In this document: positions 20,827 to 23,936 of the stretch, piece by piece
How the letters are laid out: the number at the start of each line of letters is the position of its first letter
Position numbering within the stretch: the first letter of the stretch is position 1
NCBI GenBank assembly: GCA_035717485.1
Contig: DASTIQ010000120.1
Span: 1-58,412, forward strand
Reading direction: 5' to 3'
DNA from: Thermoanaerobaculia bacterium
Lineage (GTDB): Bacteria; Acidobacteriota; Thermoanaerobaculia; UBA5066; DATFVB01
Length of the DNA: 58,412 nucleotides
The notes under the pieces: generated by a model
What the model was told of the DNA's origin: nothing
Seen by the model: only the letters and a program-made list of their open reading frames with translations
Databases searched by the model: none
Made by a program: the position numbers and the translations under genes

Positions 20827-22875
20827 TTACGACGGGGTGTGCGGATCTCCGAGGCGGCCGGCGAGGTCGGCGAGCGCGTCGGCGAGCCGGCGCCGGAGGT
20901 CGTCGGCCGAGCTCTGCCGGCGCGCGAAGTCGTCGCGCGCCTGACGCACCGTTTCGTCGATCTCGGCCGCCGCCCGCCGCCGACTCTCGGTTTCCTCGTC
21001 CCGGAACGCCCGGAACCGCTCTTCGAGCTCCAGGACGGCCTGCCGGGCGGATTCCCGCTCCGCCGTCGAGCGCGCGCTCAGCTCGTCGAGGAGACGTTCG
21101 AGCCGGGCGAGACGCGACTCCTGGTCGACGACGAGCTGGCTGAACTTCTCTTCGGTCTCCTGGATCCGGAAGCCGAGCTTCTCGAGCGCCGCGGCGGTGG
21201 CGAGCGACTCCCGGCTCACCTGCGCGACGAGCTCCATCTCGCGCCCCGATCCCTCCGCGAGCGACTGCTGGAGGTCCGAGATCCCCCGGCGGAGATCGCT
21301 CACCTGGCCCTCCGACGCGAGGCGCGCGTTGGTCCAGTCGGTTCGCAGGAGATCGAAATCCTTCGCCCAGCCGCGGGCGGCTTCGACCTGGCCGAGCCGC
21401 CCTTCGAGCGCGCCGATGCGGGCCGGGATCCCGGCGCCTTGCGCCAGGCCGTTTTCGATCCCCGACAATCTCTGCTCGAGCTCGTCCCATCGGGCGAGCT
21501 TCTCTTCCGCGGCGGAGATCCGGTCGCCCCACGCGGAGACGACGGCGAGCTGGATCATTCGCTCCTCGAAAGCAGAGGCGACCGGCGCCGGCTCGGCGGC
21601 GGGCGGCGGGGTTTCGGGAGCAACCGACGTCGTCTCGGCGGCGGGCCGGGCGGCTTCCGCCATGACGGGAGGCGGGGCTTCTGCGCTCTCCGGACGGGCG
21701 GCTTCCGCCGCAGCCGCCTCGGCAGCCGTCGCCGGCTCCTCGGGGGCGAAAGGCGCCGCGGGGGCTTCGGGCGGCTCCGGCTCGTCGGGGACGTCGGGGA
21801 CGGCGGGGACGGCGAATGCCGCCGTGCTGGCACGATCGTCCTGCCCCGGAAATTCGACGGGAGCCGGCGCGGAGGCGGGCCGTCTGGGGAAGAACGCCGG
21901 ATTGGTGTCTTCCGTGACGCCGGACGGCTCGGCGAGGGGCGGGAACGTCTCGAAGACGATCGCGTCGCGGCGCGCCGTCTCCGCCGGCGCCTCGGCCGTC
22001 CCGGACCCCTCTTCGTCCATCGGAAACGGAGCGACGGCGATCGGCGGGGAGTCGGCGTCCGAAGCCGCGACGGCGGCGGGGTGCGGCGAGGCGAGCGTCG
22101 GGATCGCGCGCGTCGTCCCGAGGTCTTCGGTCTCGGGAAAGGCGATCGGTTCGGGCACACGGCGCGCGGCGGGGGGCGGAACCTCCGGCGCGTGAGCGCT
22201 CATCCCGTGCACCATGGAGCTCTTCCAGGCCGAGAGGTTTTCCGTCTCGCTCGCCGCCGGACGCGCGGGCTTCGGCGCTCCGCGCTTCTGGAGCCGCCGC
22301 AGGATGTCGACGAACGTCAGCTTCGAGATCAGCTTGAACGTCTCGACGACGCCCTTTCCCTCGGACGCGACGGCTTCGATGAACGGGTGCCCGGCGAGAC
22401 CGAGACCTTCCTGGAGCGCGTCGACGGCGAGGACGTCCGGAAGATCCCGTTTGTTGAACTGGACCGCGAAGGGGATCGTCGCCGCGTCGATCCCTTCCTC
22501 CTTCAGATTCTGGCGAAGGTTCTGGAGGCTCTCGAGGTTTTTCGGCAGCTGTGACCAGCGGGAATCGACGACGAAGACGATCCCGTCGGCGCCGCGGAGT
22601 ACGACCCGGCGCGTCTCGTTGTACGGGCTCTGTCCGGGCACGGTCGCGACCTGGAAACGGATCCGGTATCCCTTCAGGTCCCCCAGCTCCACGGGAAGGA
22701 GATCGAAGAAGATCGTCCGGTCGGCGGTCGCCGCCAGCGTGAGGAGATTTCCGACCGAGGAGGGCTCGAGCCGCCGGTGGAGGAACTGGAGATTCGTGGT
22801 TTTGCCGCCGAATCCGGGACCGTAGTACACGATCTTCGCGGTCAGTTCCTTGGAGGCGGCGTTGTAGACGACCAT
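20827..22875 (-). CDS. MglA-family small GTPase fused to a long Pro/Ala linker and coiled coil
   Basis: The 682-aa product opens with an MglA-type Ras-like GTPase: P-loop YYGPGFGGKTTN (residues 17-28), switch-2 ATVPGQSPYNETRR and NKRD, ending near residue 195 (VDILRRLQKRG). Typical MglA is about 195 aa. Here roughly 240 residues of Pro/Ala/Glu-rich linker follow, then about 230 residues of heptad-rich sequence (AEEKLARWDELEQRLSGIE and later RLARLERLLDELSARSTAER), predicted coiled coil. MglA proteins set cell polarity; a built-in coiled coil could be the scaffold arm. ATG 22875 matches the usual MglA start; no Shine-Dalgarno, but TATCAT lies 13 nt upstream. Confidence 0.87.
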   Translation of the reverse strand: MVVYNAASKELTAKIVYYGPGFGGKTTNLQFLHRRLEPSSVGNLLTLAATADRTIFFDLLPVELGDLKGYRIRFQVATVPGQSPYNETRRVVLRGADGIVFVVDSRWSQLPKNLESLQNLRQNLKEEGIDAATIPFAVQFNKRDLPDVLAVDALQEGLGLAGHPFIEAVASEGKGVVETFKLISKLTFVDILRRLQKRGAPKPARPAASETENLSAWKSSMVHGMSAHAPEVPPPAARRVPEPIAFPETEDLGTTRAIPTLASPHPAAVAASDADSPPIAVAPFPMDEEGSGTAEAPAETARRDAIVFETFPPLAEPSGVTEDTNPAFFPRRPASAPAPVEFPGQDDRASTAAFAVPAVPDVPDEPEPPEAPAAPFAPEEPATAAEAAAAEAARPESAEAPPPVMAEAARPAAETTSVAPETPPPAAEPAPVASAFEERMIQLAVVSAWGDRISAAEEKLARWDELEQRLSGIENGLAQGAGIPARIGALEGRLGQVEAARGWAKDFDLLRTDWTNARLASEGQVSDLRRGISDLQQSLAEGSGREMELVAQVSRESLATAAALEKLGFRIQETEEKFSQLVVDQESRLARLERLLDELSARSTAERESARQAVLELEERFRAFRDEETESRRRAAAEIDETVRQARDDFARRQSSADDLRRRLADALADLAGRLGDPHTPS

Positions 22876-23105: not shown

Positions 23106-23936
23106 ATGGCCGAAACGACGACCCTCCGCGTCTGCGACGTGCCGATCGTCGGACGCTCGGTCGCCGGACAGGAATCGTTCTACCGCCTGCCGACTCTCCG
23201 CTCGGCGCTCGAGATCGGACGATGCCCGAACGCGCTCGTCGCGGTCCCGAACGTCTTCGTGACGCACGCCCATCTCGACCATGCGGCGGGAGTCGCCTCG
23301 TATGCCTCGCAGCGGACGCTCCAGGGGCTGGAGGCGGGGAGGGTGTTCCTGCCGGCGGAGGCGATGGAGGGGTTCGAGAAGATCCTCGCGCTGCACGTCG
23401 AGCTCGAGGGATTCCATCGGTACGCGGCCCACCTGAAGGGCGTCCGTCCCGGCGACCGGATTCCGCTCCGCCACGATCTCGAAGTCGACGTGACCGCGGG
23501 GAGCCATCGGGTTCCGTGCGCCGGCTACGTCTTCTGCGAGACGCGCCGGAAGCTGCGCCGCGATCTCGCCGGAACCTCCGGGGAAGAGATCGCGCGGCTC
23601 CGGGAGCGGGGGATCGGAGTGACCGAGGAGATTCGAACGCCTCTCCTCGCCTACCCGGGGGACTGCGATGCCGGGATCTTCGACGTCGCGCCGGAGATCT
23701 TTCGCGCGCGCATCCTCCTCCTCGAATGCACGTTCATCCGGCCGGGCGAGGAGGAGCGGGCCGCCCGCTACCGGCATCTCCATCTTTCCCAGATCGCCGC
23801 CCGCGCTTCCGATTTCGCCAACGAGGCGATCGTCCTGACGCATTTCTCGGCGAAGTACTCGAGGGAGGAGATCGAGGAGCGGGTGAAGGCGGGGCTGCCC
23901 GATTCGCTGCGGGACCGGGTCGTCGCGTTCGTCTAG
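23106..23936 (+). CDS. RNase Z-like metallo-beta-lactamase-fold hydrolase
   Basis: The 276-aa product has the tRNase Z-type fold: metal motif FVTHAHLDHAAG, GSHRVPCAGYVFCE with a later His ligand, AYPGDCDAGIF and LECTF, and a final IVLTHFSAKYSREEI. The arrangement resembles short tRNA 3'-processing endonucleases and related plant-type proteins, but HAHLDH replaces the common HxHGDH and the exosite is not evident, so the substrate is uncertain. ATG 23106 sits 7 nt after TAGTCT. Its stop overlaps the stop of the convergent gene at 23933 by 4 bp. Confidence 0.78.
   Translation: MAETTTLRVCDVPIVGRSVAGQESFYRLPTLRSALEIGRCPNALVAVPNVFVTHAHLDHAAGVASYASQRTLQGLEAGRVFLPAEAMEGFEKILALHVELEGFHRYAAHLKGVRPGDRIPLRHDLEVDVTAGSHRVPCAGYVFCETRRKLRRDLAGTSGEEIARLRERGIGVTEEIRTPLLAYPGDCDAGIFDVAPEIFRARILLLECTFIRPGEEERAARYRHLHLSQIAARASDFANEAIVLTHFSAKYSREEIEERVKAGLPDSLRDRVVAFV

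Follow-up and report, generated by a model that had tools for sequence, protein, structure and literature searches.

A single intact gene in the window, by which we mean the whole 58,412-nucleotide stretch of Thermoanaerobaculia DNA analyzed here, encodes a 682-aa protein that joins an MglA GTPase to a disordered linker and a long helical tail. The assignment of its switch part as a Group 1-type MglA GTPase is well supported. With about even confidence, we propose that the protein is a lineage-specific coiled-coil-tailed paralogue of MglA, which would act as an MglB-regulated switch for polarity or type IV pili and whose tail would oligomerize or anchor it. The role of the tail (scaffold or oligomerization), its partner, and the process it serves are what we infer from the analyses below.

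Gene layout and GTPase domain

The reading frame runs on the reverse strand from an ATG at 22875 to a stop at 20827, as seen from the ORF and its translation, and the same-genus orthologue is 668 aa long and 72% identical. The full protein was modeled with AlphaFold2 as a monomer (mean pLDDT 60, pTM 0.36). The model contains a globular domain up to residue 197, a disordered stretch at residues 198–432 with pLDDT mostly under 50, and helices at 433–477, 483–540, and 546–676 (about 235 helical residues), with pLDDT 80–89 over residues 601–670. The initial annotation had described a Pro/Ala/Glu-rich linker and a long extra C-terminal region and had suggested structure prediction as a check; the model bears out this layout, with the extra region appearing as a helical rod at residues 433–676. 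The features are collected in Table 1.

Table 1. Positions in the window of the tailed GTPase gene, its parts, and its divergent neighbor
Feature	Positions	Strand	Evidence
Complete gene: MglA GTPase, disordered linker, coiled-coil tail	20827..22875	(-)	ORF, translation, same-genus orthologue
MglA GTPase domain, residues 1-197	22285..22875	(-)	phmmer, Foldseek, AlphaFold2, invariant columns in 17 relatives, dN/dS
Disordered Pro/Ala/Glu-rich linker, residues 198-432	21580..22284	(-)	AlphaFold2 pLDDT, composition, same-genus comparison
Helical tail, residues 433-676	20848..21579	(-)	AlphaFold2, helical periodicity, purifying selection over 441-682
Strongest predicted coiled coil, residues 570-619	21019..21168	(-)	COILS-type score p>0.5; best conserved tail stretch between two same-genus copies
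Metallo-beta-lactamase-fold hydrolase gene, divergent from GTPase gene	23106..23933	(+)	Pfam Lactamase_B_2

Residues 4–191 align without gaps, over 188 residues, with the Myxococcus and Thermus MglA structures 5ymx and 6izw (phmmer 1e-54), and the residue numbering of Myxococcus MglA therefore applies unchanged to the 682-aa protein. When the AlphaFold2 GTPase domain, mostly at pLDDT 60–87, was submitted to Foldseek, the top 14 matches were all MglA, the best being 6izw and 5ymx (TM by target 0.82–0.87). We judged family membership by the Group 1 criteria of Wuichet and Sogaard-Andersen 2014, which comprise R53, T54, TVPGQ82, and the NKRD set (PMC4316618). The domain retains R53, T54, D58, TVPGQ82, NKRD144, K181, and K185. 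The Group 1 arginine lies beside the G2 threonine in DRT at 52–54, and the G3 motif TVPGQ occupies 78–82; both are invariant in 17 relatives. The G1 P-loop reads GPGFGGKT at 19–26, and the G4 motif [NT]KxD is present as NKRD at 141–144. At the MglB interface, for which the MglA residues were taken from PMC6785124, the contacts F56, F57, L64, K181, and K185 are retained, while F59 and I67 are each replaced by Leu. K181 and K185 are invariant in the 17 relatives, as are most catalytic and MglB-contact columns. The phmmer and Foldseek matches, together with the motif residues, confirm the MglA-family identity that had been assigned from the sequence at the outset.

The 682-aa protein is therefore like the MglA proteins of M. 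xanthus and T. thermophilus (5ymx, 6izw, 3t1o) in its fold, its Arg53 finger, Gln82, TVPGQ, NKRD, and most of its MglB contacts. Where the known proteins stop, at about 195 residues, this one continues with 235 residues of linker and about 245 of helical tail. Unlike canonical MglA (194–197 aa, encoded with mglB), it is not encoded beside mglB, and it falls in a different clade of the GTPase tree. SofG of Myxococcus xanthus, a second Group 1 MglA-family GTPase, has 239 residues and acts on the positions of pilus ATPases (PMC4316618); it shares the Group 1 assignment with the 682-aa protein but is set apart, by its description, in having no coiled-coil arm of such size.

The helical tail and the relatives that share it

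Of the 235 linker residues, 48 are Pro and 58 are Ala; the 245 residues of the helical region include a single Pro. Core hydrophobics of the tail recur with a local helical periodicity of 0.89, versus 0.29 ± 0.08 for shuffled sequences, and none of 300 shuffles reached as high a value. A COILS-type score, which is a re-implementation with an approximate matrix and served mainly for comparison between clades, exceeds p>0.5 only at residues 570–619 (50 residues; shuffle mean 9, maximum 62). The coiled-coil score of the 682-aa protein alone is modest and not beyond chance, with a few shuffled sequences matching it. The 230-residue coiled coil claimed initially holds in part: about 235 residues are modeled as helical and their periodicity is beyond that of shuffles, but only the 50-residue stretch scores as coiled coil. 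The tail is fairly described as some 235 helical residues that have coiled-coil character. In NCBIfam it matched LiaX weakly, at E 0.009 and with a score well short of the cut-off, and we set this match aside as coiled-coil noise.

Comparison with the same-genus copy indicates that the three parts evolve under different constraint. The GTPase domain is 97% identical (dN/dS 0.016/0.76), the linker is 54% identical with 16 gaps over residues 196–440 (dN/dS 0.38/1.37), and the tail at residues 441–682 is 68% identical with no gaps (dN/dS 0.22/0.89, or about 0.24). The tail, being gap-free with dN/dS of about 0.24, is therefore translated and under stronger selective constraint than the linker. 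This selection and the conserved length eliminate the possibility that the tail is an annotation error or is read out of frame. A stop of translation after the GTPase, which the initial annotation had named as a result that would overturn it, is likewise excluded, as the frame is open and the tail is under purifying selection.

A search of 60 relatives gave MglA matches in 51 genomes. In a quick tree built from the GTPase domains of 114 extracted proteins and M. xanthus MglA, the 682-aa protein falls in clade I, which comprises 30 proteins from six families of its class, with lengths of 337–1038 residues. Clade support is SH-aLRT 89, and 79 in a second, thinned tree; clade I is a separate group with weak to moderate support. 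The canonical MglA proteins, nearly all of exactly 194 residues, cluster with M. xanthus MglA (SH-aLRT 95). All 30 clade I tails contain predicted coiled coil, none with fewer than 28 coiled-coil residues (shuffle mean 1.6), so that across these relatives the coiled coil is beyond chance. What had been put down as an unusual architecture is, in clade I, the rule among the sampled members, and other long-tailed MglA paralogues are common across the phylum.

Clade I tail lengths range from about 140 to over 800 residues, and the linker and tail sequence is poorly conserved between families. Poor conservation of this kind would be expected if the tail were a decaying or neutral extension without function, a reading to which we assign very little probability. 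Such an extension would predict dN/dS near 1 or frameshifts and is already disfavored by the purifying selection and lack of indels over residues 441–682 within the genus, by the coiled coil in every clade I member, and by the long open frames kept across six families. The tail might instead be mainly an autoinhibitory or stability element that folds back on the GTPase and neither anchors nor oligomerizes it. It lies in cis on a flexible linker that is long enough, and MglB provides a precedent for a helix acting on that surface, as its C-terminal helix binds MglA allosterically (PMC6785124). We consider this improbable, however, since the AlphaFold2 model has no compact packing of the tail on the GTPase and the wide range of tail lengths fits a spacer or tether better than a precise lid.

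Clades II and III and other long paralogues, which occur in the same genomes, share the MglA domain and the Pro/Ala-rich linker and have 354–707 residues. Clades II and III differ from clade I in ending in a short beta-strand-like module, and coiled coil is rare in these sister clades (3 of 27 and 1 of 12 tails). Among the 22 best long MglA matches from other classes, coiled coil was absent or marginal (2 marginal), and none of them joins clade I; an origin of clade I outside the class was rejected on these grounds. A whole-protein scan of genome contigs returned only four distant relatives, with other tails. Tailed MglA is therefore common across the phylum, and the coiled-coil kind appears, within the present sampling, to characterize this class. 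The motif [NSAD]PF[DEAGF] occurs more often in clade I tails than in shuffled sequences (22 of 30, versus 2.4), but the linker of the 682-aa protein itself has no clear copy, and we drew no conclusion from the motif.

Two other kinds of tail were seen during this comparison. The short, conserved beta-strand-like end (e.g., ...VPLNLTLDEIRRHRKLKLRITLDVNILK) is found in clades II and III (e.g., L091, L118, L112), in L031 and L033, and in the phylum matches L175–L196, and long MglA paralogues with such ends also occur in Krumholzibacteriota; this terminal stretch may be an unnamed output module. Eight proteins of 709–729 aa fuse the MglA GTPase to GAF-HisKA-HATPase_c (L113 at G024:C165, L106, L122, L128, L133, L139, L145, and L153). 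They come from two families of the same class and have a degenerate MVQFDNxYRQ start, and Pfam confirmed the Arf, GAF, HisKA, and HATPase domains in one of the eight, L113. Compared with the coiled-coil form, this GTPase–histidine kinase chimera seems the more unusual architecture.

MglB, gene neighbors, and a possible link to pili

No Roadblock gene was found among the proteins scanned at 13.5–30 kb of the window, and the initial remark that no MglB partner is seen nearby is true locally. It is misleading for the genome, where mglB belongs with a canonical mglA elsewhere, at a locus that is broken here by a contig end. In relatives, mglB adjoins the canonical mglA (gene order: dnaX, a ~100-codon gene, recR, mglB, mglA), and a same-genus genome carries mglB with a canonical 194-aa mglA at a locus separate from the tailed gene. 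The mglB of G001 is at L065:10570-11076:-. The first genome scan gave one MglA and one weak Roadblock match, so that canonical mglA, clade II mglA, and the matching mglB were apparently missing; the reason is an assembly gap, because contigs end inside the two mglA genes. The mglBA contig of the same-genus genome matches G000:C234, whose last base falls within mglA at residues 175–184, and comparing the DNA of the two genomes placed the end of contig G000:C39 inside the clade II mglA gene. In view of these contig ends, we rejected the idea that the genome truly lacks MglB. The genus also conserves a second, weakly matching Roadblock/LC7 protein of about 122 aa (G000:C15:1942-2208 and G001:C124:9720-9986), which adjoins no mglA.

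Both the genus and family f2 preserve the divergent pairing of the GTPase gene with the metallo-beta-lactamase-fold gene, and the Lactamase_B_2 gene (family F6) lies beside the GTPase at L045, L049, L051, L052, L054, L055, L056, and L058. At six loci of family f8, a gene of about 260 codons without a Pfam match (family F9; L061:10636-11421 and equivalents) is directly beside the clade I gene. Neighbors of clade I genes are conserved only within families: era, corC, and phoH in two families, and nadA and smr in another. As these genes are housekeeping-looking and differ between families, we discarded the neighborhood as a clue to function.

The same neighbors could nevertheless be taken to mean that the protein is an MglA-derived switch working outside polarity and motility, with the coiled coil positioning, for example, envelope growth, chromosome, or ribosome-associated functions. 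No motility gene lies beside the gene for this protein, and with several MglA paralogues per genome, functions must be divided. We regard this as a minority reading, though one that deserves some weight. The retained MglB contacts and catalytic set point instead to the same regulator as that of polarity MglA, and neighbor sets that vary by family resemble the chance positions of a stand-alone gene.

Evidence for a pilus connection comes from the distribution of MglA as a whole. Ten of 61 genomes have no MglA match. The same 10 genomes, and no others, lack a PilT above the curated cut-off, and they all belong to genus g18 (G025, G028, G031, G034, G037, G043, G046, G049, G052, and G055). The sister genus of g18 (G040) has both MglA and PilT, and the pattern suggests that g18 lost pili and MglA together. 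Because the co-loss concerns one genus, it counts as one evolutionary event, and the tie of the MglA family to type IV pili is suggestive. Clade I itself is absent from families f4, f6, f7, f9, f11, and f12, all of which have PilT, so the pilus link concerns MglA generally. In five genomes, a clade II MglA gene lies 7–15 kb from a pilT match (G003:C14, G013:C42, G002:C109, G004:C158, and G040:C15). At the loci read, genes in the vicinity of the clade II gene include hrcA, dnaK, and one for a LysM transglycosylase.

Proposed role and significance

In our proposal of an MglB-regulated, coiled-coil-tailed switch, the GTPase would cycle between GTP and GDP under the MglB encoded beside canonical mglA elsewhere in the genome, as residue conservation suggests. 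The coiled-coil arm would form a dimer or oligomer or dock on a polar or type IV pilus complex, and the flexible linker would let the switch reach partners from its anchor point. In Myxococcus, the MglA effectors SgmX and FrzS couple MglA-GTP to pili at the pole (PMC7519303, PMC7668184, PMC11580455). These are separate effector proteins, whereas the 682-aa protein has its non-GTPase arm in cis; the likeness is functional and no homology is claimed. One chain would then carry the tether that Myxococcus MglA gets from separate effectors. A bolder and rather unlikely extension is that the class holds a whole set of self-scaffolded MglA polarity switches with cis output arms (coiled coil, beta module, or histidine kinase), in which the coiled-coil type would be a GTP-controlled polar scaffold or filament-like hub that works without separate effectors.

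We found no open-licence paper reporting a fusion of MglA with a coiled coil, and coiled-coil-tailed MglA is apparently undescribed. A 2014 survey of prokaryotic Ras-like GTPases excluded sequences of >240 residues, including 39 from the MglA clade (PMC4316618), and tailed MglA has therefore been largely unexamined. At 682 residues, the protein exceeds the ≤240-residue filter of that survey, a choice made for sampling rather than a biological criterion, and the strict label of "small GTPase" does not fit it. The gain from the 682-aa protein itself is moderate, as it combines a known switch with an undescribed arm. The tailed MglA proteins found here are conserved, with several per genome and a terminal module particular to each clade. 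If the tails are output arms, they would name the machines on which MglA paralogues act and would offer a simple test of how tasks are divided within one GTPase family.
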